From Verrucomicrobiia bacterium (GTDB lineage Bacteria > Verrucomicrobiota > Verrucomicrobiia > Limisphaerales > Pedosphaeraceae): a stretch of DNA of 64,000 bases. A model generated the notes under the pieces. That model saw only the letters and a program-made list of their open reading frames with translations, was not told where the DNA came from and ran no database searches. Position numbers and translations under genes: made by a program. Positions 16,198 to 29,582 of the stretch are shown here, in pieces (positions within the stretch are counted from its first letter, which is position 1; every line of letters begins with the position of its first letter). The stretch covers positions 1 through 64,000 of the forward strand of contig DATAUW010000034.1 in NCBI GenBank assembly GCA_036268055.1, written 5' to 3'.

Positions 16198-17670
16198 TTA
16201 TTGAACTTTGCACGACGACACCGTGTCATTCGCATTAGGAGACAAGGTCGTAAAGTTCGGCGTATCCGAGGTCAACGTCCACGACGTCCCACTAAAGTTG
16301 TCGTCGGAATACATAATGAGAGTCCGCCCGCTGGGCACTCTCACTGACGAAGCCGAATCATTCGCACAGCCCAACGCCGCAAGTTGGGAAAGCGTGTACG
16401 TTCCCACTCCTAAAGTCTGGCTGGCGGTTCCGCCGTAGTTGATATCGGAGAAGAACATGACTCCCGTTCCAGTCTGCCAGCTGTTCCCACTCAGCGTGGT
16501 GGTAAAAGTGCCGGTCGCGCTGTTCAAGAATGCAACCTGGCCGCTGTTCAAACTCTGGACGGTGTTGGTTTTGATTGTTGCCGAACCGCGGGCGCCGGAT
16601 TCGATCCAAAGCCCCGTCAATCCGGGATGATTAATGGTATTATTGTTAAAGGTATAGGTGCCATCAGACATGGTGACGCCATACTTTAACGTGCTTTTTA
16701 TCGTATTTCCCGTGACGGTCGCAGTTGAGTTATCCTGAAGCCGGATGCCCGCCTCATTGTCATTATTGGTGCCACCGCCCACACAGGTGTTCCCACTGAT
16801 CACCGCGTTTTGAACGATCCCGCCAATGCTCCCTTCACCGCCGAAAATGCCGCAGATGATGTCGCTTTGATAGGCATTGGTGATGAAATTGTTTTGCACG
16901 GTGGAGTTGGTGCCGCCGGCAATGCGCACGCCGTTGGCCGCATATGCTCCGGATGAGACGCAATTCAGGACTTTGGCGTTGACCATGTTTACCCGGCCAC
17001 TGCCGGTGGGAATCTGGGAATTGATCGCGAATTCATCGTCGCCCGCATGATACCCCTTGCAACTCTGAATGGTCAGGTTGGCCCCCAAGCCATTGGGCCC
17101 GTCGCTGTTGTTGATGTTCAAGCCGTCGGCAAACGTATTTGTCACCACGCAATTCTGAATAGTTCCACTGGATCCGGTGGCCCACATCCCGGCGTCGGAA
17201 TGTTGGATTTGAACACGCTGCATTAACCAGCCGACACCGTTCACACTAAAACCGTAGTCAGCATTCACACCTCTGGCCGTGCCGTTGCCGTCAACTCCAA
17301 GGTCTTGCACCGTGCATCGCGTCACGTGAATGGTGGTGTCGGTCGAGCCGGACTTTTGGCGATAAATGACACTGGACGTCATTCCCGCTCCGGCGATGAG
17401 AATTCCCGTCGCACTTAAAGAACCGGTGACTTTATAAGTCCCCGATGGAATCCAGACCCCCTTTCCCTGAGTTTGGGCGGCGTTGATGCAACTCTGAATG
17501 GCGGATGTGTTATCACTCGACCCCGTGCTCGCTCCATAAGTAATGATCGAGAGAGTATTCGCCGGCTGGCTTTGGGCGCTAACATTGGCGGTAGAGAGAT
17601 TAAAAACGATAATTCCCGATAACAACGAAGACACACATAAACGGCTAATAATGGCTTTAATGGTTTTCAT
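16198..17670 (-). CDS. Secreted right-handed beta-helix protein with C-terminal beta-gamma-crystallin domain
   Basis: The 490-residue protein opens with a signal peptide, then YGASTGSSDNTSAIQSCINAA, the typical entry of pectate-lyase-3/GH28-like beta-helices. Many parallel-beta repeats follow with Asn ladders (TVQNNFITNAY, VISGNTCVGG, TVTGNTIKSTL). The last 90 residues form a beta/gamma-crystallin unit: VMFFSDINYGG, then NDSASSVRVPSG, then MYSDDNFSG and NDTVSSCKV. The two N-D-x-x-S-S loops are the usual calcium sites of microbial beta-gamma-crystallins. A polysaccharide lyase or hydrolase, or a surface-binding protein, is plausible. I cannot point to catalytic residues. A hairpin (AGGCACG/CGTGCCT, 17706-17727) lies in the presumed leader. 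Confidence 0.75.
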   Translation of the reverse strand: MKTIKAIISRLCVSSLLSGIIVFNLSTANVSAQSQPANTLSIITYGASTGSSDNTSAIQSCINAAQTQGKGVWIPSGTYKVTGSLSATGILIAGAGMTSSVIYRQKSGSTDTTIHVTRCTVQDLGVDGNGTARGVNADYGFSVNGVGWLMQRVQIQHSDAGMWATGSSGTIQNCVVTNTFADGLNINNSDGPNGLGANLTIQSCKGYHAGDDEFAINSQIPTGSGRVNMVNAKVLNCVSSGAYAANGVRIAGGTNSTVQNNFITNAYQSDIICGIFGGEGSIGGIVQNAVISGNTCVGGGTNNDNEAGIRLQDNSTATVTGNTIKSTLKYGVTMSDGTYTFNNNTINHPGLTGLWIESGARGSATIKTNTVQSLNSGQVAFLNSATGTFTTTLSGNSWQTGTGVMFFSDINYGGTASQTLGVGTYTLSQLAALGCANDSASSVRVPSGRTLIMYSDDNFSGTSWTLTSDTPNFTTLSPNANDTVSSCKVQ

Positions 17671-19383: not shown

Positions 19384-19683
19384 TCAATTCACATTATTCA
19401 ATCTTGCGGTTGGCTCTGGCAAATTCTCTAACGATTGGAAAAGCATGTACAACGGAAGCTTCAATGCTTTGGCCAAATTTTGAATGCTGCGTAATGAAAT
19501 ATTTCTCGTTCCGCGTTCAACATCGGATATGTATGTTCGATGCAGCCCGGATCGAAAAGCCAATTCCTCCTGCGAGACCCCCTGCGTTTTTCGAAAACTC
19601 CTAATCGCGAGTCCAAATTGTTTCGTTACGTCACTATCATTGACGATGGGGTTGATTAAATTATTGAAATTGTTCGTTTCCAT
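19384..19683 (-). CDS. XRE-family helix-turn-helix regulator
   Basis: The 99-residue protein contains one lambda-repressor-like domain: FGLAIRSFRKTQGVSQEELA, then the recognition helix region SGLHRTYISDVERGTRNISL and a closing helix LAKALKLPLYMLF. The text is close to controller (C) proteins of restriction-modification systems and SinR-like repressors. No methylase or nuclease gene is adjacent, so a C-protein role is not supported. I chose the ATG at 19683. Extension to 19767 is possible, but the extra 28 residues are low in structure. It is divergent from the ECF sigma gene and may control it. Confidence 0.78.
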   Translation of the reverse strand: METNNFNNLINPIVNDSDVTKQFGLAIRSFRKTQGVSQEELAFRSGLHRTYISDVERGTRNISLRSIQNLAKALKLPLYMLFQSLENLPEPTARLNNVN

Positions 19684-19859
19684 TTGAGTATAAAAATTGG
19701 AATTCGAATTACATAACTCTCTACGCTGGGAAATGTGGCCATCTTTCAAAAAAACATCCTGATCCAATATTTTTTCGGATCGCGAAGTTCAAATTGTCCG
19801 TCAAATCCCGCATAGCGCAGAAATTTTTATGTGATAAGGTCACCGCAATCCATTAAGAT

Positions 19860-19891
19860 AACCAAGTCGGCCCCGGAAGACCGACTTGGTT
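19860..19891. promoter_or_regulatory. Perfect 11-bp-stem hairpin between divergent regulators
   Basis: AACCAAGTCGG at 19860-19870 pairs perfectly with CCGACTTGGTT at 19881-19891 around a 10-base loop. It lies in the 19768-20123 gap, upstream of both the XRE gene (minus) and the sigma gene (plus). Only a short T run follows, so it could be a weak terminator or leader attenuator, or simply a dyad. The rest of the gap shows no gene. Confidence 0.5.
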
Positions 19892-20123
19892 TAACCATCC
19901 CTCACCCTTTTTCCCCGTCCCCAAAAGATGATACGTATCAAAAAAACAAATCTTTCATTTGAATTAAAAAATTTGCCGAACCGGTCGCCCACCCAGCTGT
20001 TCAGCGTTCACCTTATGGTTGCCTACGTGACTTTTCGTCATTTTGCGCTCTAAACGCTTAAATTCTTTTGATTCTCGGGGATTATTTTGAAAGAATCCTG
20101 AATGTAGCCCGTATCCTTAATAT

Positions 20124-20774
20124 GTGCCGGATGACAAATTTAAAATGAAAGCTGTCGAGAGGATCATCCCGACGCGCAAATCCTTGTTGAGCCGGCTGCG
20201 AAAGGGGCAGGACAATGAAAGCTGGAAGGCATTTTTCGATACTTATTGGAAATTGATTTACACGACTTCACTTCGAGCGGGACTCAACGACGCCGAAGCA
20301 CAGGATGTCGTGCAGGAAACTGTTTTGTCGGTATTCAAGAGCATGCCGAACTTTCATTACGATCCAGAGAAAGGCTTATTTCGCGCATGGCTTCTTAAAC
20401 TGACTCGCTGGCGGATTACCGACCAACTCCGAAAGAGGCAAAGGTTCATCCAGGCTACCGACTCCGACACGCGAACCACCGGCATGGGCGCTTCAGGAAT
20501 TGATCAAATCGCGGACCCTGCGAGCGCCACGCTGGAAGCTGTATGGAGTGAAGAATGGGAACAAACCTTAATGGATGCGGCGATTGATCGTGTGAAAAAG
20601 AAGGTGGATCCGGAGCATTTTCAAGTTTTCGATCTTTATGTTGTAAAAAAATGGCCTGTGTTGAAGGTCGCCCGGACGCTGAAGATAAATCCAGGGAAGG
20701 TTTACCTGATCAAACATCGAATTGGTAATGCGATTAAAATTGAAATAAAAAAATTAGAATTCAGTCCAATTTAA
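20124..20774 (+). CDS. ECF-type RNA polymerase sigma factor
   Basis: Region 2 is clear: WKAFFDTYWKLIYTTSLRAGL, then DAEAQDVVQETVLSVFKSMPNF and FRAWLLKLTRWRITDQLRKR (2.3/2.4). Region 4 (EHFQVFDLYVVKKWPVLKVARTLKINPGKVYLIKHRIG) is the promoter -35 recognition part. The sequence is of the ECF type abundant in Planctomycetes and Verrucomicrobia, which is often encoded near Ser/Thr kinases, and a kinase-WD40 gene indeed lies 3 kb downstream. The start is GTG at 20124, or ATG at 20145. No anti-sigma factor with a membrane segment follows directly; the next small gene starts 7 bases later. It probably directs transcription of its own cassette. Confidence 0.9.
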   Translation: MPDDKFKMKAVERIIPTRKSLLSRLRKGQDNESWKAFFDTYWKLIYTTSLRAGLNDAEAQDVVQETVLSVFKSMPNFHYDPEKGLFRAWLLKLTRWRITDQLRKRQRFIQATDSDTRTTGMGASGIDQIADPASATLEAVWSEEWEQTLMDAAIDRVKKKVDPEHFQVFDLYVVKKWPVLKVARTLKINPGKVYLIKHRIGNAIKIEIKKLEFSPI

Positions 20775-20780
20775 GTAATT

Positions 20781-20990
20781 ATGAAAAATGTCGCAGCACC
20801 GCTGAAGCACCGGGATCAGTGGGTCAATTCAAATCGAAACCGATTGGATGACTCTGACCGTGTGCCGCAAGGATATGAACGTACTGCCCGGCAGTTGCAT
20901 GAAGTGAAGCGGCACATGCTGAAACGGCTTTCTTTTCTATTTAAAGAACAAGCCCAGCCTTGCTTTCCCAAGGATCTCCACAAACAATAA
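20781..20990 (+). CDS. Small basic protein of unknown function, coupled to sigma gene
   Basis: The frame encodes 69 residues, starts 7 bases after the sigma stop and runs in the same direction. The predicted product is soluble, hydrophilic and mostly helical, with ERTARQLHEVKRHMLKRL as the best-defined helix. I do not recognise a family. Its position suggests a sigma-associated regulator or a small cassette component. Absence of a strong ribosome binding site and of known relatives keeps the call tentative. Confidence 0.45.
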   Translation: MKNVAAPLKHRDQWVNSNRNRLDDSDRVPQGYERTARQLHEVKRHMLKRLSFLFKEQAQPCFPKDLHKQ

Positions 20991-21006
20991 TAAAGCCTAA
21001 ACAATA

Positions 21007-21204
21007 ATGAACACCCTCACAAAGCCCGCTATCAAAAGCCCTGAACTCTTGACTCCAGGTTTTAGCCCTCGGCCAAAGCCGGCGGCCAGAAAAAAAATGG
21101 GCCCTCAAGCAGATGATGATTCCTCTCCTTCGCCCGATCACAGCCCAATGCCTTATACTCCCAGTCCCAGCCCCAGTCCCGACAATAAATTACGCGGCAA
21201 GTAA
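21007..21204 (+). CDS. Small Ser/Pro-rich peptide
   Basis: The 65-residue product has a basic, Pro-rich first half (PGFSPRPKPAARKKMGPQ). The acidic to Ser/Pro-rich second half contains SPSPDHSPMPYTPSPSPSPD and ends LRGK. Low complexity of this sort is typical of disordered linkers and of O-glycosylated or phosphorylated acceptor peptides. It lies 72 bases upstream of a triple-domain glycosyltransferase and not far from a Ser/Thr kinase, so it could be a substrate of either. That is inference, and the frame could also be spurious. No signal peptide or Cys residue is present. Confidence 0.42.
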   Translation: MNTLTKPAIKSPELLTPGFSPRPKPAARKKMGPQADDDSSPSPDHSPMPYTPSPSPSPDNKLRGK

Positions 21205-21275
21205 GACGTTAAATTCGTCATAGTCATCGGTGGCTTCCTAACTTTAACTCGTTAGGGTCAGGTATTCTTTCGATC

Positions 21276-23858
21276 ATGCAAAAGCGCAAGCTGCTTCTCA
21301 AATGCGGCCTTTCTTTGGGTGATATTGTGATGTTGACAGCGGCGGTGCGCGATCTGCACATCGCTTATCCCGGCAGCTTTTTAACTGATGTAAAAACGCC
21401 TTTTCCAACCATTTGGGAAAATAATCCTCACATCACGCCTCTTTCAACCGATGATCCCGAAGTAGAGATAATCGATTGTTCGTACCCGCTTATAAATCGG
21501 TGCAACAATACTCCGTATCATTGCCTTCACGGATTTATAGAGTTTCTTAATGAACGCTTGAATCTGGCAATCAGACCCAGCGTATTCAAGGGTGATATTT
21601 ACCTTTCGGGCTTGGAAAAAAGCTGGTTTTCGCAAGTTTATGAACTGACCAACGCTAACATTCCATTTTGGATCGTTGCGGCAGGCGGAAAATATGATGT
21701 CACGATCAAATGGTGGGAGTCGGGGCGATATCAGGCTGTTGTTGACCATTTCAAGGATAAGATTCAGTTCGTCCAGGTCGGTGACCGTGGACATCATCAT
21801 CCCAAATTGAGCGGCACGATTGATTTGCGCGGAAAAACCGATCTCCGACAGCTAATCCGTCTGGTTCATCATGCTCAAGGAATTCTTTGTTCCGTCACGG
21901 GGCTGATGCACTTATGTTCTGCAGTTGAAACGAAATCAAACGGAATTACAAACCGCCCTTGTGTCGTAGTCGCAGGAGGTCGTGAACCCGCGCACTGGGA
22001 GGCTTATCCTGACCACCAATTTATCCATACCAATGGCGCGCTGGCCTGCTGCCAAAATGGCGGGTGTTGGAAAGACAGGACCGTCCGGCTGAATGACGGA
22101 GACGAAAGAGATCAAAAGAACCGTTTATGTGTGGATGTCGCGGAGGGCATCGCGCGCTGCATGTCCATGATCACTCCCGCGCATGTGATCAGTCGAATTA
22201 AAACGTATTTTGATGGAGGCGTCCTGCGATATTTGAATGCCACGGAGGGTCGTGCGGCAGACGGCGGCGTTCGTGCAAGCTCCAAAAACTCCTATGACGA
22301 ACAATCCTTAAATTTATCAAGTGCCGGGTTAGCTTGTGATGCTTTTATTAAACAAATACCACCCTATCCTGACATTTTCAAAGGACGCGGCATCGTGATT
22401 TGCGGAGGCGGGGCAAGGTATTTCACTAACGCTTGGGTTTGCATCAACATGCTCCGGCGCCACGGGTGCCACCTTCCGATCGAGTTGTGGTATTTAGGCG
22501 AGCGGGAATTGGATGACGAAATGAAGGCCGTCATAGAGCCCTTGAATGTTAAATGCGTTGATGCCTTTGAAATGCGAAAGAAATTTCCGATTCGACGGCT
22601 GGGCGGCTGGGAGTCGAAGGCTTACGCGATTCTCCATTCAAAATTTCAGGAGGTGATTTTTCTCGACGCGGATAACGTGCCAGTTGCCAATCCAGAATAT
22701 TTATTTGATTCAAAAGAATATCAAAAGACGGGCGCAATATTCTGGCCAGACTATGACCGGCCGGCCGGCCATCAGCCAACGGTCTGGAAAAGCTGTGGCA
22801 TAAGACGGCCAAAAGAACCGGAGTTTGAATCAGGACAGATCGTCGTGGACAAAAAACGCTGCTGGGAAGCTCTGTCTTTAGCCGTATGGTTCAACGCCAA
22901 TTCTGATTTCTATTATCAATATATTCATGGCGATAAAGAGACGTTTCATCTCGCGTTTAGAAAATTAAAAACTCCCTATTCTCTAGTTCACATCCCGATT
23001 CACACTCTTGAAGCAACGATGTGCCAGCATGATTTTGACGGGCGACGCATCTTCCAACATCGGAACATGGATAAATGGGACTACCTGCTGATGAATCGCA
23101 AAGTTGAGGACTTCTGGTTGGAACAGGAGTGTCACGATTACATTGTCCAGCTAAGGCGCGTTTGGGATGGCGGCTGTAAGAAACTGCGTAAAATATTTCC
23201 GCGACGATCTTTTTCCATCAAGCCAAGAAAGACCGCGAGCATCGCCGCCGTGATGACCTCCTTTGGCGAAAGAAAACGTCTTAGGAAACAAACGATCAAG
23301 AATCTCCAACAAACCGATTGGGGCGATCGACCAATTCATATTCAAATTGACACCGAACGGGACCTTGATGATGCCGAGCGATACCTGCGTTGCGCTTACC
23401 TAGCATTGAAAAAAGGACTCAATTTCAAAACCGATTTCATTCTGTTGATCGCCGATGATTTGGAGTTTAACCAGCAGATCGGCTTCAATCTGGATGCGTG
23501 GGAACCACTTCAACGCCGGGAGGGCACAGTCGCCACCCTATATAATTTTCACGCGCGCGAATTAGCATTTGACGTTGCCAGGCACACGAGAATCATTGAC
23601 CCCGGCGCTTTTACTCGCAGCCGCGCCTATTTGTTTTCCCGCGAGAGTGTTCGTCTTCTCCTGAACCGTTGGAAAGGTATTGAAGGAAGTATTGAAACGA
23701 AAATTTGGCACCTGACCCGCAGATTAAATCAACCGGTTTATTCTTATGCGCCTTCGCTGGCTCAACACGTGGGAACCAAAAGTATTTGCGGAAACCATTT
23801 TCACAGAGCACCGGATTTCGACGCGAATTGGGTACATCCAGATCACGGACCGGCCTAG
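21276..23858 (+). CDS. Three-domain glycosyltransferase fusion
   Basis: The 860-residue protein appears to join three modules. Residues 1 to about 290 resemble GT9 heptosyltransferases: LKCGLSLGDIVMLTAAVRDL at the start and LRQLIRLVHHAQGILCSVTGLMHL near 190. Residues from about 368 to 620 resemble MNN1/GT71-type or GT8-like enzymes, with VICGGGARYF and a metal-binding D-x-D in IFLDADNVP near 462. Residues from about 653 carry a third transferase-like segment, with LIADDLEFN near 724. No signal peptide or membrane helix is visible, so it is probably cytoplasmic. The neighbours are a Ser/Pro-rich peptide and a kinase. The acceptor could be a peptide or a surface glycan precursor. The third domain is the least certain. 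Confidence 0.68.
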   Translation: MQKRKLLLKCGLSLGDIVMLTAAVRDLHIAYPGSFLTDVKTPFPTIWENNPHITPLSTDDPEVEIIDCSYPLINRCNNTPYHCLHGFIEFLNERLNLAIRPSVFKGDIYLSGLEKSWFSQVYELTNANIPFWIVAAGGKYDVTIKWWESGRYQAVVDHFKDKIQFVQVGDRGHHHPKLSGTIDLRGKTDLRQLIRLVHHAQGILCSVTGLMHLCSAVETKSNGITNRPCVVVAGGREPAHWEAYPDHQFIHTNGALACCQNGGCWKDRTVRLNDGDERDQKNRLCVDVAEGIARCMSMITPAHVISRIKTYFDGGVLRYLNATEGRAADGGVRASSKNSYDEQSLNLSSAGLACDAFIKQIPPYPDIFKGRGIVICGGGARYFTNAWVCINMLRRHGCHLPIELWYLGERELDDEMKAVIEPLNVKCVDAFEMRKKFPIRRLGGWESKAYAILHSKFQEVIFLDADNVPVANPEYLFDSKEYQKTGAIFWPDYDRPAGHQPTVWKSCGIRRPKEPEFESGQIVVDKKRCWEALSLAVWFNANSDFYYQYIHGDKETFHLAFRKLKTPYSLVHIPIHTLEATMCQHDFDGRRIFQHRNMDKWDYLLMNRKVEDFWLEQECHDYIVQLRRVWDGGCKKLRKIFPRRSFSIKPRKTASIAAVMTSFGERKRLRKQTIKNLQQTDWGDRPIHIQIDTERDLDDAERYLRCAYLALKKGLNFKTDFILLIADDLEFNQQIGFNLDAWEPLQRREGTVATLYNFHARELAFDVARHTRIIDPGAFTRSRAYLFSRESVRLLLNRWKGIEGSIETKIWHLTRRLNQPVYSYAPSLAQHVGTKSICGNHFHRAPDFDANWVHPDHGPA

Positions 23859-23893
23859 CCGTCCGTATCACCTGCTCCAATTTTGCATTGATT

Positions 23894-23918
23894 GGAGGTG
23901 CTGGCTTGCTTCACCTCC
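23894..23918 (+). promoter_or_regulatory. Hairpin burying a Shine-Dalgarno sequence ahead of the kinase gene
   Basis: GGAGGTG at 23894-23900 pairs with CACCTCC at 23912-23918. GGAGGTG is an excellent ribosome binding site and lies 5 bases before an in-frame TTG (23906) that would extend the kinase by 12 codons. Folding of the hairpin would hide both. This may limit kinase translation or decide between two starts. Confidence 0.4.
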
Positions 23919-23941
23919 ACAGGTCTGGTATCCGATGGCCA

Positions 23942-26900
23942 ATGGACACAAAAATGGCCTCGCAGCATCGGCCACCGACATCGTCGGGCGGTGGCCAATC
24001 GTCTGTCCATAAAACAAGCCACCCTCCCCCCAAAATTCCCGACCACAAATTATTGCGGTGCATTGGCCAAGGCAGCTACGGGGAGGTCTGGCTTGCCTGC
24101 AATACAATGGGCACTTTTCGAGCCGTCAAAATCGTTTACCGCGATTCCTTTAAAGACGACCGCCCATTCAAACGCGAACTCGCAGGCATAAAAAAATTCG
24201 AGCCTATATCCCGTTCTCATGAAGGGTTCGTGCATGTCCTTCATGTCGGAATGAATTCCGACGAAGGGTATTTTTATTACGTGATGGAATTAGGAGACGA
24301 TCAGAAGTCCGATCAGGTGATCAATCCCGAGTTGTATTCCCCAAAAACTCTGGGAACCGTCATTTCTCAAAAAGGGAAATTACCGGCGCAGGAATGTCTT
24401 CAACTTGGAATAGCCCTCAGCTTGGCTTTGGCCGAATTACATAAGCGAGGACTTGTTCACCGCGACGTAAAGCCTTCAAACATTATTTTTGTCAACGGTG
24501 TTCCGAAATTGGCGGACATCGGATTGGTGGCGGATGCAAACGAAGCCCAGTCGTATGTTGGAACGGAAGGTTTTATTCCTCCCGAAGGCCCGGGATCGGC
24601 GCAAGCGGACGTTTTCAGCCTTGGAAAGGTTCTTTATGAAGCCTCTACCGGAAAAGATCGGCAGGACTTTCCAGAATTGCCCACGCTGTTGGAAGGTTTT
24701 GAAGATCGCGCTAAATTGCTGGAACTTAACGAAGTCATATTAACGGCCTGCAAAAACGATCTCGCCAGGCGTTATCACTCCGCATGGGACATGCACGCCG
24801 ACCTGTTGGTTTTGGCAAACGGAAAATCAGTGAGACGGCTGAAAGCTTTGGAACAGCGGCTGTCTCAAATTAAACGTACGGGGATTTTTTTAGCCGTGAT
24901 CGTGGCGGTCGCAGGTCTATTTTGGCTCCAAATCTCACGGACGCAAAAGATCAAAGCCGAAATGCGCCAGAAACAAATCGGCGAAAACATGGCTTACGGA
25001 AATCGCGCCGTAGAATCCGCCGACTTGCTCGGAGCCCTCCCCTATTTTGCCCAAGTCCTGCATTTAAGTGCTGGTGACCCGGAAGATGAAGCAAATCATC
25101 GACTGTTGTTCGACACGACTCTGGCGCAATGTCCTAAGCTCAATCAAATGTGGTTTCTCGGCACCGACACTCGCGACGCAGAATTCAATAAAGATGGGAC
25201 CAAGGCGCTGATTTGCAGATATGCTGATGAAGACAATGATTCCGGGGGATTAAGGATTTATGATCTGCGCACCGCAGCCTTGGAGGAAAAGGAATTTAAT
25301 GAAGGAGACTGGCCATCGTCCAGCTCGTGGAGCATGGACGGGAAATTCGGCGCGACGGCGTGTGAAGATAAACGTGCTTACATTTGGGATCGAAATACTC
25401 TCAAGCCGTTACAAACGCTTGTTCACCCGGGCGCTGTCATGTGCGTACGTTTCAGTCCCGACGGGTCACTGGTCGTCACCGCTTGTCAGGACGGTATCGT
25501 AAGAATATGGCAGCGTGATACCGGACGTTTGATTCGCCAACTAATTGGACATAAAGGTGTTGTGCGCTTCGCAAATTTTAGCCATGACGGACACCTGATC
25601 GTAAGTGCGGGTGAAGATCACACAGCGCACCTGTGGGACGCTACCACAGGGAGAAGTCTTGGCGAGTCGTTACCGCACGACAGTTGGGTAAATTATGCCG
25701 CGTTCAATCCGGACGATACCATCTTGATCACCGCATCTTCTGATCGTAAGGCCCGATTGTGGGACGTAGCCACCGGACGGCGGATACTCGTTGATCTAAA
25801 TCATCAGGATTCAGTCGAATGTGCAGGATTTAGTCCGGACGGCCGCCTCGTGTTAACAGCAGGCCTCGACGCCACGGCCTGTATATGGCGCATGGACAGT
25901 CTGCAATCCATTACCCTGATCGCCACGTTGCGACATAGTGCCGGCATCACTCACGCGACATTCAGCCCCGATGGACATCATGTGCTCACGACCTGCACCG
26001 ATGGCACCGTGCGTTTGTGGGATTTGGCCGGTAGCGCGCCGACGCCTCCTCAGACACATTTTTATCCTAGCGAGAATGGAAAATTTCTTTTTTCCGTTAC
26101 AAGCAACAACGTCCAAATCTTTAATTTGGTTTCCAATCAAATTTCAACCATAGCAAACCCGTCCTCGCTACCCATAAAAAAACTCATCCCAAGCCGGGAT
26201 GGGTCCGCGCTGTTAGCTTTAGCGATCGCAGAAAAAGGCGACACAAATCACAATCTGACCGTGACGGTTTACGATCCCGCGAGCGGAAGAATAATCTTTA
26301 ATCACGCCTCCGAATCGGCCGCTTTCCAAGATGCTTCGACAAGCAGTGACGGTAAAACTTTCGCTCTCTTCGGAAATGAAACCTATGAAATATGGCATCA
26401 TGCAACCGGCACAAATGCCGGATATTCCTCGTTTAGAGGATTGGCGACCTCCGTGGTCATAAGTCCGAATGGAGAATTGATCGCAACTCGAACCAACAAG
26501 GAATTCCGCGTATTAAATCTATCGGGGAAAATAATTTTACAGTCTCCCAGATTTCCAAGTCCAATTGATTACCTGGCCTTTAGCCCCGATAATCACTGGC
26601 TGTTGGTTTGTTGCGAAGACGGTCTAATTCATAAATGCTTCGCGCAAGTTTGGAATCTGGCATCAGGCAAGCACGGGCCAGAATTATGGCACAGCGATGG
26701 CGTTTTGTCCGGCGCATTTAGTCCTGATAGCCGGCAAGTCGCGACGGCGGGTGAAGATGGATACGCCAAGGTTTGGGACACGGTCACCGGCGTTCAAATT
26801 GCTTCCACCTTGAAACAATCGAAATCCATACAAAATGTGATTTTTAGCGAAGACGGCCGGATTATTCTCACGACTTGTGCGGATCGAAGCTTTAGATTGT

Positions 26901-27361
26901 GGAGCGCAAAAACGGGCGACCCACTGACCCCACCGATCTTTCAATTTCGTTTTTTGGCAAAAGCATATCTTTTGGCCCACGGCTTGAAGATTTTGACCAC
27001 CGACAATTTCACCAACTCCTGGATCTGGGAGTTAGATCAAGATAAAGACTCTGTCGCAAACACAACTGACATTGCGGAACTCCTGTCAGGCGTGGGTCCT
27101 CCTCTGGGAGATGAAACGGGCTCGTCTCGCCCGTCGCTAGAGCGTTTATGGTATCAGGCTACTGCAAAATATCCAGCGATCTTCCTAACACCATTCCAAA
27201 ATGTCACCGCATGGCAAAAACATCAGGCTGAAGAATGCGAAAAAAAACGGCAATGGCCCGCAGCGGCTTTTTACCTTCGACGACTGGCCTCAAACGAACC
27301 AGGGGATGTTAGCATCCAGTCACGTCTGACAATCGCGGAAACCCATCTCAACACCAAATAG
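23942..27361 (+). CDS. Membrane-spanning Ser/Thr protein kinase with C-terminal WD40 propellers
   Basis: The 1139-residue protein has a Hanks-type kinase domain: glycine loop GQGSYGEVW near residue 43, AVKIV lysine, catalytic HRDVKPSN near 173, and DIG in place of the usual DFG, followed by a GTEGFIPPE activation-segment end. One membrane helix (IFLAVIVAVAGLFWLQI) lies near 315. The rest (about 400-1035) is a long series of WD40 repeats, such as VRFSPDGSLVVTACQDGIVRIW, which probably form two propellers for protein binding outside the membrane. I used ATG 23942. TTG 23906 with a good ribosome binding site is an alternative. It likely senses or scaffolds within the sigma-factor cassette. Its substrates are unknown. 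Confidence 0.85.
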   Translation: MDTKMASQHRPPTSSGGGQSSVHKTSHPPPKIPDHKLLRCIGQGSYGEVWLACNTMGTFRAVKIVYRDSFKDDRPFKRELAGIKKFEPISRSHEGFVHVLHVGMNSDEGYFYYVMELGDDQKSDQVINPELYSPKTLGTVISQKGKLPAQECLQLGIALSLALAELHKRGLVHRDVKPSNIIFVNGVPKLADIGLVADANEAQSYVGTEGFIPPEGPGSAQADVFSLGKVLYEASTGKDRQDFPELPTLLEGFEDRAKLLELNEVILTACKNDLARRYHSAWDMHADLLVLANGKSVRRLKALEQRLSQIKRTGIFLAVIVAVAGLFWLQISRTQKIKAEMRQKQIGENMAYGNRAVESADLLGALPYFAQVLHLSAGDPEDEANHRLLFDTTLAQCPKLNQMWFLGTDTRDAEFNKDGTKALICRYADEDNDSGGLRIYDLRTAALEEKEFNEGDWPSSSSWSMDGKFGATACEDKRAYIWDRNTLKPLQTLVHPGAVMCVRFSPDGSLVVTACQDGIVRIWQRDTGRLIRQLIGHKGVVRFANFSHDGHLIVSAGEDHTAHLWDATTGRSLGESLPHDSWVNYAAFNPDDTILITASSDRKARLWDVATGRRILVDLNHQDSVECAGFSPDGRLVLTAGLDATACIWRMDSLQSITLIATLRHSAGITHATFSPDGHHVLTTCTDGTVRLWDLAGSAPTPPQTHFYPSENGKFLFSVTSNNVQIFNLVSNQISTIANPSSLPIKKLIPSRDGSALLALAIAEKGDTNHNLTVTVYDPASGRIIFNHASESAAFQDASTSSDGKTFALFGNETYEIWHHATGTNAGYSSFRGLATSVVISPNGELIATRTNKEFRVLNLSGKIILQSPRFPSPIDYLAFSPDNHWLLVCCEDGLIHKCFAQVWNLASGKHGPELWHSDGVLSGAFSPDSRQVATAGEDGYAKVWDTVTGVQIASTLKQSKSIQNVIFSEDGRIILTTCADRSFRLWSAKTGDPLTPPIFQFRFLAKAYLLAHGLKILTTDNFTNSWIWELDQDKDSVANTTDIAELLSGVGPPLGDETGSSRPSLERLWYQATAKYPAIFLTPFQNVTAWQKHQAEECEKKRQWPAAAFYLRRLASNEPGDVSIQSRLTIAETHLNTK

Positions 27362-27381
27362 CGAGCAGCAATGCCAGGCCG

Positions 27382-27768
27382 ATGGCGTCTGCTGATCTCG
27401 GAGTTTATTTGAAAGATTTGTGTTGGCTCGCCCGTATCTATCAAATGATGGCCAAAGCGGATCGCACGAAATCAATAGAACCGAGCGCGAGGGATATCGA
27501 AAGGAATATTTCTTTGCAACCACAAGGAGGGTTGGACAGCGCAATTTCCTCAAGTTCACAACTTTTTCGAGTCATTCTTCAGAATAGAACCTCTTTGCAC
27601 TATTTTCGATCAGGGAACGACTGGACAGAAAACTTTTATGATGCCTACGATTTTGGGCAACTCATTATTGCTTTGGATTTTGCCCGGACTGCAAAACTCT
27701 CCAACTTGGATATTTTGTTATGTTTTGATAATCCAAAATACGATCTCCGCTTTTGTGCATCGTTATGA
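27382..27768 (+). CDS. Hypothetical protein, 128 residues
   Basis: The frame begins 20 bases after the kinase stop and runs in the same direction. The product is soluble, with a protein-like second half (SGNDWTENFYDAYDFGQLII) but no family that I recognise. Its TGA overlaps the ATG of a further 30-codon frame (ATGA at 27765-27768) that has no visible relatives. It may be the last gene of the kinase cassette or a remnant. The 245 bases after it hold nothing else I can support. Confidence 0.42.
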   Translation: MASADLGVYLKDLCWLARIYQMMAKADRTKSIEPSARDIERNISLQPQGGLDSAISSSSQLFRVILQNRTSLHYFRSGNDWTENFYDAYDFGQLIIALDFARTAKLSNLDILLCFDNPKYDLRFCASL

Positions 27769-28013
27769 AAAGCTTCGGCGTCAGAAGTACTCATTCACAA
27801 GAAATGATTAATTATGTTCCGCGGTGCCGCTTTGAATGCCTGAAAAATGTTGTGTGAGTGGACAGACATTCGACAGGCAATATGGTGGGTCTTTATGTTG
27901 CACCCAATATTAAAATGTTTCATCATTTCTAACTCAAAAAATTTCAATTTTCGCCGCTTCTCCGATCATCTCTGTGTCGCCCAGGCTCGTAATACGTTGA
28001 CGCCGAATCTCAT

Positions 28014-28508: not shown

Positions 28509-29582
28509 ATGACAACATCCGTCCGCATCTCTGATTTGCAAGAACGTTTCACCGGCTTGTTGCTGGGCACTGCGGTTGGCGATGCTTTGGGGTTGCCTGC
28601 GGAAAATCTTTCTGCGGAGCAAGCACGCAGGCGATGGAATGGTGAGTGGAAAATGCGTTTTGTTTTCGGCAAGGGAATGGTCAGCGATGACACCGAACAC
28701 ACATTGGCGGTTGCACAAGCTTTGCTTGCCCATTCCGATGACTCCGCCGCATTTCAACGCGCACTAGCTTGGAAACTTCGTTGGTGGTTTGCTGGTCTGC
28801 CGGGCGGTGTTGGCCTGGCTACCGCAAGAGCCTGCATCAAATTATGGGTTGGATTTCCAACTAGCAGAAGCGCTGTTGTCTCGGCTGGCAGTGGCCCGGC
28901 AATGCGCAGTGCTATCATTGGGGCATACTTCGCTGGAAACCCGGAAAAGCGGAAGAAATTCGTGCTGGCTTCATCACGATTGACTCACCGAAGCTGGCAG
29001 GCGGAAACCGCAGCACTGGCGGTCGCTGAATCCGTTGCGTTGGCAATTACCAATTCTGAACAAGACACCTCACAAATTCTCACCACTCTTGGCGCGCTTT
29101 CCTTGGAATCGGAATGGCAGAAAATCATGCTCACAATCAAAAATTCGCTTGCCGCTGGTCATTCCGTGCCAGATTTTGTGGACAGTCTGAAACTGAAACG
29201 CGGTGTGACGGGTTATTCACTGCACGTTGTCCCCGTCGCGCTCTACGCGTGGTTACACCAACCAAATAATTTCCGCGCAGCGCTGACCTCTGCTTTAGAC
29301 TGTGGCGGAGATACAGACACCGTTGGTGCGATTTTGGGGGCACTGTCCGGCATTGCGGTTGGTAAATCAGGAATCCCCGTTGAATGGATTGACAATATTT
29401 GGGAATGGCCGCGATCAGTGCTGTTCATGGAAAAGGTTGCCGCAAGGTTGGCCACGCAAAATCTTACGGATCATCCGGCCGGCTCCGTGAGTTATTTCTG
29501 GCCAGCGGTCATTTTCCGCAACATTTTTTTTCTTGGTGTCGTGCTGGTTCACGGATTTAGGCGGCTTGCCCCGCCATATTAA
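28509..29582 (+). CDS. ADP-ribosylglycohydrolase family protein
   Basis: The 357-residue protein starts with FTGLLLGTAVGDALGLPAE, the family's entry helix. It carries the di-magnesium ligands in GMVSDDTEHT near residue 58 and CGGDTDTVGAILGALSGI near 260, followed by GIPVEWI. Such enzymes remove ADP-ribose from proteins (DraG), nucleic acids or small molecules. The fold looks complete and the metal residues are all present, in contrast to its truncated neighbours. It appears co-transcribed with the PP2C remnant and faces the RtcB gene. The target cannot be read from sequence. A role in reversing modification during stress or conflict is inference. Confidence 0.88.
   Translation: MTTSVRISDLQERFTGLLLGTAVGDALGLPAENLSAEQARRRWNGEWKMRFVFGKGMVSDDTEHTLAVAQALLAHSDDSAAFQRALAWKLRWWFAGLPGGVGLATARACIKLWVGFPTSRSAVVSAGSGPAMRSAIIGAYFAGNPEKRKKFVLASSRLTHRSWQAETAALAVAESVALAITNSEQDTSQILTTLGALSLESEWQKIMLTIKNSLAAGHSVPDFVDSLKLKRGVTGYSLHVVPVALYAWLHQPNNFRAALTSALDCGGDTDTVGAILGALSGIAVGKSGIPVEWIDNIWEWPRSVLFMEKVAARLATQNLTDHPAGSVSYFWPAVIFRNIFFLGVVLVHGFRRLAPPY

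Follow-up and report, generated by a model that had tools for sequence, protein, structure and literature searches.

Pairs of an extracytoplasmic function (ECF) sigma factor and a kinase are common in bacteria of the PVC group (Planctomycetes, Verrucomicrobia, Chlamydiae), and to our knowledge their regulons are rarely known. Six ECF groups have been proposed to be kinase-controlled, with control by phosphorylation, and all of them keep acidic residues in region 2.2 except ECF43, where the DAED motif of that region is missing (PMC8999054). The WD40 parts of planctomycete kinases are predicted to be mostly periplasmic (PMC11032199). In TibC, a bacterial autotransporter heptosyltransferase (BAHT), four cysteines (Cys-339, 342, 358 and 370) form an iron finger (PMC4358343). 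Here we describe a locus of a Verrucomicrobiia bacterium (assembly GCA_036268055.1) in which an ECF sigma factor and a WD40 kinase enclose a small Ser-Pro (SP) peptide and a glycosyltransferase (GT) of three domains. It lies in the window, by which we mean the whole analyzed stretch of 64,000 nucleotides (contig DATAUW010000034.1, positions 1 to 64,000), part of a 5.1 Mb draft genome. We consider it somewhat probable, judging from sequence and predicted structure, that the locus is a small cassette dedicated to peptide glycosylation and run by an ECF sigma factor under the control of the kinase.

All five open reading frames (ORFs) named in a preliminary description of this DNA are present on the plus strand in the order claimed there, with corrections to two starts (Table 1). 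The kinase probably begins at ATG 23942 and not at TTG 23705: its relatives in L031, L033 and L036 align from that methionine, which lies after the GT stop. The sigma factor may start at ATG 20145, the residue from which five relatives align. The intergenic gaps from the sigma factor through the 69-aa ORF, the 65-aa peptide and the GT to the kinase (ATG 23942) are 6, 16, 71 and 83 nt, sizes that would suit an operon. Domain searches agree with the assignment as sigma factor, kinase and GT. The sigma factor matches Sigma70_r2 (E 7.8e-11; Pfam, region 2 only) and, above cut-off, the ECF superfamily model TIGR02937 (residues 33-200); the kinase contains a Pkinase domain and 8 WD40 stretches (Pfam); the 860-aa protein is a fusion of three GT domains, two of them recognized by Pfam and the third visible only in the predicted structure. 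GT relatives, the recurring gene order and synonymous codon variation in the Ser-Pro motif show that the cassette exceeds chance. Its ordinary part is the ECF sigma factor beside a WD40 kinase, its unusual part the conserved peptide and the modular three-domain GT between them, with a promoter of its own.

Table 1. Location of the features discussed, in window coordinates unless a locus or the GT protein is named.
Feature	Location	Strand	Basis or remark
ECF-type sigma factor	20124-20774; start perhaps ATG 20145	+	ORF, Pfam, NCBIfam, relatives
69-aa ORF, conserved basic helix, candidate sigma/kinase accessory	20781-20990	+	profile and by-eye likeness
65-aa Ser-Pro peptide, PGFSPRP motif and SPSPSP tail, candidate acceptor	21007-21204	+	recurrence, codons, counts
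Three-domain glycosyltransferase (GT), 860 aa	21276-23858	+	Pfam, AlphaFold2 model, VIA-align 2
GT domain 1, GT9-like	GT residues 4-318		Pfam Glyco_transf_9, model
GT domain 2, Mnt2-like	GT residues 343-635		Pfam Mannosyl_trans3, model
GT domain 3, POMGnT1/GnT-I-like	GT residues 650-858		predicted structure only
Ser/Thr kinase with WD40 repeats and apparently a single membrane helix	23942-27361	+	Pfam; helix read from sequence
Promoter TGAAAGA-N15-CGTA before sigma	20088-20113	+	before sigma in 12/20 related sigma loci
Divergent promoter, same type	19932-19957	-	divergent copies in 7/20 related loci
Second match upstream of the Met (METNNF) of the HTH gene	19722-19748	-	not seen conserved
Promoter after kinase, same type	27410-27436	+	same place in 5/20 related loci
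107-aa ORF downstream of post-kinase promoter	27445-27768	+	relatives in L067, L070
Divergent XRE/HTH_3 regulator gene	19384-19767	-	Pfam HTH_3 E 3.9e-15
Right-handed beta-helix protein, secreted-looking	16198-17670	-	Beta_helix E 5.9e-14
PP2C-like ORF, 156 aa	28014-28484		matches the profile only from position 83 on
ADP-ribosylglycohydrolase gene	28509-29582		
Second GT fusion in L070	L070:3117-5693	-	Mannosyl_trans3 and GT4
Sister double-glycine peptides	L115:6712-6867; L117:6535-6762; L121:8803-8955		
Sister double-glycine peptides	L122:5545-5757; L123:859-999; L125:8667-8921		

To follow the recurrence of the cassette we used 126 candidate contig stretches, 109 of which encode a GT relative; 80 of the 109 were kept, and the tallies refer to these plus the window. 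A search of 97 related genomes overlaps with this contig set (e.g., L031/L065), so that the counts are not independent. GT relatives were found in 31 of the 97 genomes, including the window's own, which has a single GT locus. The named relatives are mostly from Verrucomicrobia, the first listed belonging to Pedosphaera sp. (61% identity), so that a Pedosphaera-like verrucomicrobium is the probable host. The 11 relatives in alignment A1 share 42-61% identity with the window GT. A sigma factor was scored when it was encoded upstream of the GT, on the same strand and within 4.5 kb, which excluded eight of the 81 loci as too short; the strict test for the peptide demanded an ORF with [FYW]SPxP and two or more SP, no further than 1.3 kb upstream of the GT. 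Nineteen of the 81 loci contain the sigma factor, and these 19 contain domain 2 of the GT in 17 cases, the kinase in 17 (L086 has none, L076 is not scorable) and the SP peptide in 13. Among the 54 scored loci without sigma, domain 2 was present in 12, the kinase in four, a double-glycine (GG) peptide in five and the SP peptide in one only (L092, where peptide and GT stand without sigma or kinase). Thus, the grouping of sigma factor, Ser/Pro-rich ORF and kinase beside the GT, as preliminarily described, does recur. It does not extend to the GT family at large: domain-1 relatives occur in many contexts without peptide or kinase, an outcome that the preliminary description had named as refuting; the idea of a joint system therefore stands in part, favored by the recurrence and by a promoter concentrated in the cassette.

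The peptide itself has the motif PGFSPKPA in five cassettes and a close variant in others (for instance PQYSPQP in L083), and its codons (CCN GGN TTY AGY CCN etc.) vary synonymously; by this pattern the peptide is judged to be under protein-level constraint. Alignment A3 comprises 16 rows, selected because they contain the motif; apart from M1, its invariant positions are S20, P21 and P23. It could be argued that the small ORFs are no more than accidental frames of low complexity that separate the real genes, and short Ser/Pro-rich ORFs do arise by chance: 8.0% of 4662 random 900-nt stretches, drawn from these loci with the window excluded, have one with at least three SP. An upstream small ORF of this kind was found in 15 of 30 hand-picked GT loci (window included), even though the ORF length limit missed the peptide of L068; with at least five SP the counts were eight of 30 loci against 0.8% of the random stretches. 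These excesses, together with the same place, the same motif and synonymous codon change across diverged loci, rule out chance frames as a working explanation, and we regard it as very improbable. Neither of the two small ORFs of the window has a family above cut-off in Pfam or NCBIfam. The pattern search of the own genome gave 13 peptide-pattern matches (5 in the reversed control), four of them reading GFSP[KR]P; three of these four are not in the window and belong to frames of 33-79 codons, and no second copy of the peptide was seen by this search. In three sigma-less GT-kinase loci (L080, L081 and L082) the GT is preceded by an ORF of 96-121 aa with a Pro-rich start and a helix, which is perhaps another acceptor type.

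The predicted structure of the GT was obtained with AlphaFold2 from 22 sequences (alignment A2; mean predicted local distance difference test score, pLDDT, 86.2) and compared by VIA-align 2. Domain 1, matched above cut-off by Glyco_transf_9, resembles in fold 3tov (Z 22.5), WaaF (19.8), TibC (4rb4; 19.0, with a root-mean-square deviation (rmsd) of 3.0 over 265 aligned residues) and WaaC (18.9). Late in the domain it has four cysteines (258, 264, 285 and 295), which all 80 of the 80 domain-1 rows conserve; these rows, which also served for the domain-1 tree, cover 79 of the 80 loci and the window, one row having been dropped by a length/stop filter (L103 is not in the tree). NCBIfam heptosyltransferase equivalogs match the GT far below cut-off. 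The following region, matched by Mannosyl_trans3, is close to yeast Mnt2 (residues 343-625; Z 23.6, rmsd 2.8, 270 aligned), with glycogenin near 17.9, and the two aspartates of its DAD motif, D464 and D466, are the same in every row of A1 and A2. A sequence search of solved structures with the single protein matched only Mnt2 and glycogenin, both weakly (E from 0.038 upwards), and a profile search found Mnt2 at 2e-6, followed by matches at 0.075 and 0.6. Among the structures listed, residues 650-858 are nearest in fold to POMGnT1 (Z 16.6) and GnT-I (Z 16.5), and several relatives have EDD where the window reads ADD. This third domain is replaced by Glyco_transf_34 in L091 (E 2e-17) and by a GT4 domain in L089; by eye it also looks GT34-like in L047 and L103, GT4-like in L088 and FkbM-like in L046 and L087, the reading for L087 being unconfirmed by Pfam.

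The best support for the peptide as acceptor comes, on sequence evidence, from six sister loci (L115, L117, L121, L122, L123 and L125), where an ORF with a GG leader and a Ser-Pro core stands directly before a GT9 relative (e.g., leader KLKDLKARKAVKGG and, in L121, core SGPQSSPMSSPMSSPSPSPSSGF). A cNMP-Peptidase_C39-ABC exporter and HlyD are encoded upstream in five of the six (identified by Pfam in L125 and by relatedness in L115, L117, L121 and L122), and the sixth, L123, is a contig of 3.6 kb. No NCBIfam family was found for the two GG peptides tested. In the 80-row domain-1 tree the six GG loci form one group (100/99), and all 15 rows with the SP peptide fall within one 31-row branch (99/90) that does not include the six; 59 rows have neither label. 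Two clades of the GT9 family are thus linked with Ser-Pro peptides, each in a genomic setting of its own, and therefore the Ser-Pro peptide is probably the acceptor of the GT. It should be mentioned that in five further loci (L101, L102, L104, L106 and L113) a GT9 relative is followed by a 275-aa protein kinase (Pfam match in L101). The metagenome-assembled genomes of this type are labeled Gemmatimonadetes, Bryobacterales and Gammaproteobacteria, with closely similar GT9s across phylum labels, and some of these labels may be wrong.

A shared promoter-like element points to joint control of the cassette. The pattern TGAAAGA-N14-17-CGTA has seven matches in the own genome, four of them in the cassette, while the reversed pattern, used as a control, has five genome-wide and none in the window. 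In 23 hand-picked related loci (354 kb), 20 of which have the sigma factor, we found 29 sites versus none for the control; L035, used both here and in the SP counts, and L053, used here, came from the set of the 97 genomes. The extended consensus, by eye, is near aGATTTTTGAAAGAt-N15/16-CGTAttA. The element is shared before sigma, in the divergent position and after the kinase, and since it is concentrated in the cassette, joint control by this sigma factor is supported. The proposal that the sigma factor drives the cassette is thus strengthened as to control; its presumed product would be a glycosylated peptide. General sigma-70-like sites (12 versus 8.8 in shuffles) and terminator-like sites (9 versus 10.2) in positions 19700-27900 were not clearly more numerous than expected.

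The flanking units behind the other promoter copies vary between loci. The 107-aa ORF starts 9 nt after the post-kinase match and is perhaps leaderless; it has relatives in L067 and L070 (MRVILQNR...KYDVR). The divergent genes encode a GT4 and then a GT2/MGAT2-like protein in L065, and a second fusion and a GT2 in L070, while that of L067 is probably a GT as well (MGAT2 below cut-off). The second fusion of L070 combines Mannosyl_trans3 and GT4 behind its own copy of the promoter, which suggests duplication. In the window this place is taken by the XRE-type regulator gene, with two promoter-type matches upstream; the related loci inspected carry GTs or other genes there.

The sigma factor keeps acidic DAED-like residues in region 2.2 (motif LNDAEAQDVVQET). 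With E values of 1e-25 or lower, relatives were found in 54 of the 97 genomes, with up to nine per genome; the own genome has 41 Sigma70_r2 and 10 Pkinase matches. In at least 11 of 20 sigma-paralogue loci a related kinase follows the sigma factor directly and there is no GT, and no GT match was present among the 18 paralogue loci listed. As a general statement, that this type of sigma factor is specific to the cassette is refuted by its wide distribution and by these sigma-kinase loci. They also bear on another possibility, that the Ser-Pro peptide serves the kinase/sigma pair as its substrate or regulator (for instance as an anti-sigma factor or a phospho-switch), the GT being an unrelated payload. 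Peptide and sigma do co-occur (13 of 19 loci with sigma versus one of 54 without), Ser-Pro sites could be phosphorylated, and the kinase is encoded next door, but none of the 20 paralogue loci has an SP-motif ORF close to its sigma gene (L167 has the one match, at a distance of more than 6 kb), L092 holds peptide and GT with neither sigma nor kinase, and the 69-aa ORF fits the role of a regulator at least as well. We find this alternative improbable.

The 69-aa ORF, which the preliminary description listed between the sigma factor and the Ser/Pro-rich ORF, does lie there; on the present comparison it may, tentatively, be assigned to the sigma/kinase module rather than to the glycosylation genes. 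Its profile finds the eight seed loci and, weakly, L068 (E 0.0069), and similar ORFs without a significant score (E 3 to 16) were recognized by eye in L066, L069 and L168. The ORFs of this type have a basic helix near RRxILKKL. In L168 the similar ORF stands between sigma and kinase with no GT in the fetched stretch, and we have set the 69-aa ORF aside from the glycosylation set; this is one of the 18 paralogue loci tested, and the profile score there is not significant.

The following sequence of events can be proposed. The periplasmic WD40 part of the kinase would sense a signal, and the kinase would free or activate the sigma factor, either directly or via the 69-aa helical protein. The sigma factor would then transcribe its own operon and the two flanking units from TGAAAGA-N15/16-CGTA, creating a positive feedback loop. 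The three-domain enzyme, acting in the cytoplasm, would glycosylate serines of the 65-aa peptide: domain 1, with its four invariant cysteines reminiscent of the TibC finger, may add the first sugar, the Mnt2-like domain 2 may extend it and the POMGnT1-like domain 3 may cap it. Relatives would alter the glycan by exchanging domain 3, and two or three loci would do so through additional, divergent GT genes.

Several observations weigh against this scheme. Peptide glycosylation is deduced from neighborhood and fold, and six of the 19 sigma loci (L075, L076, L078, L085, L087 and L097) fail the strict peptide test; some of them carry other Ser/Pro-rich ORFs, and in L097 an ORF with YSPRP is located downstream of sigma but distant from the GT. 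In the window cassette the peptide comes without leader, signal or exporter, and the single Peptidase_C39 match of the own genome (E 2.6e-7) lies on another contig. As for structure, domain 3 appears in few of the 50 structural-match rows, and chains of the photosynthetic NDH complex also fit domain 1 (Z about 16.5); because such unrelated-looking chains score that high, structural matches near Z 16.5 are no proof of kinship. As for the promoter, 55 background loci (774 kb) gave eight sites versus three for the control, eight of 20 related sigma loci have no exact match before sigma, and five of the 29 related-locus sites are at other places. Nor are the divergent genes always evident GTs: the window has the HTH gene, the gene of L084 has no Pfam match, and L074, L075 and L077 have other genes by eye. 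Finally, a possible alternative acceptor is the secreted-looking beta-helix protein, whose gene precedes sigma by 2.4 kb; the acceptor of TibC likewise has a beta-helix.

Part of this evidence would suit a different role: the GT could build part of a surface polysaccharide or of the core of lipopolysaccharide (LPS), or act on another protein, with the sigma factor in charge of an envelope glycan and the peptide serving as a minor regulator or chaperone. The GT9 fold of domain 1 is that of LPS heptosyltransferases, and its likeness to these is no lower than that to TibC (WaaF Z 19.8, WaaC 18.9); some divergent units hold further GTs, no peptide exporter accompanies the cassette, and the beta-helix gene is nearby. 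On the other hand, no flippase, polymerase or lipid-carrier gene was noticed among the cassette ORFs by eye, without a profile search; the peptide accompanies the GT even in the absence of sigma and kinase (L092); members of this GT9 family are also found with Ser-Pro peptides that have a GG leader and lie next to exporters; and the four cysteines are invariant, as in the protein-modifying TibC. We hold this different role to be rather unlikely and prefer dedicated peptide glycosylation.

Downstream of the cassette lie a PP2C-like ORF, a possible phosphatase partner of the kinase, and then an ADP-ribosylglycohydrolase gene.

More tentatively, it can be hypothesized that these loci represent a new class of bacterial O-glycopeptides, in which ribosomal Ser-Pro peptides would be recognized via [FY]SPxP or a DLKxKK-GG leader and modified by a modular GT9-centered enzyme with a domain 3 that differs between lineages. 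In the Pedosphaera-like branch, control would have passed to an ECF sigma factor that amplifies its own expression, is gated by the kinase and has little more than the glycosylation locus as its regulon. We think this broader proposal possible, with less confidence than the cassette itself. If the peptide is glycosylated, the window would encode a dedicated cytoplasmic O-glycosylation system whose domains are folded like eukaryotic enzymes of O-mannosyl glycan assembly, and its peptide would stand for a new group among the glycosylated ribosomal peptides, one whose sister forms are apparently exported. In addition, for this sigma-kinase pair the promoter can be read, the regulon is compact and a candidate product can be named. 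In the titles and opening lines of abstracts listed by searches of the open-licence literature we found no account of the arrangement of GT, peptide, sigma factor and kinase.

Comparison with the described systems revealed both likenesses and differences. With TibC and AAH the window GT shares the GT9-type fold (TibC Z 19.0, 265 residues), four conserved cysteines towards the domain end and an apparent dedication to a neighboring acceptor. It differs from TibC in the spacing of the cysteines (CX5CX20CX9C versus Cys-339, 342, 358 and 370) and lacks the N-terminal beta-barrel of BAHTs (about 97 residues), its first residue aligning to TibC residue 92; it is also fused to two more GT domains, with a 65-aa candidate acceptor. 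No autotransporter domain (PF03797) was matched in the own genome (control matches in 2/14); in L109 a sister GT9 lies near an autotransporter. To LPS heptosyltransferases the likeness is one of fold alone (WaaF Z 19.8).

Glycocins and other glycosylated ribosomally synthesized and post-translationally modified peptides (RiPPs) resemble the locus in the position of a small ribosomal peptide beside a GT (71 nt from stop to GT start; 13 of 19 sigma loci), and the sister loci share with glycocin-like RiPPs the GG leader, the C39 peptidase-ABC protein and HlyD, whereas the window peptide has no leader, cleavage site, peptidase or exporter. The window enzyme combines GT9, Mnt2-like and POMGnT1-like domains rather than being a GT of the glycocin kind. 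Of the solved folds listed, domain 2 is closest to yeast Mnt2/Mnn1 (Z 23.6) and domain 3 to human POMGnT1 (Z 16.6), but the window enzyme is bacterial, apparently cytoplasmic and a single chain, and likeness in fold implies no specificity.

As in known ECF-kinase pairs (ECF43 EcfP-PknT; groups ECF59, ECF61, ECF62 and ECF217), sigma factor and kinase form one unit with no recognized anti-sigma factor. The window sigma factor keeps an acidic DAED-like motif, unlike ECF43, and the peptide and the GT are inserted between sigma and kinase. Thus, while sigma-kinase pairs are known, the peptide-GT payload of this one appears to be new.

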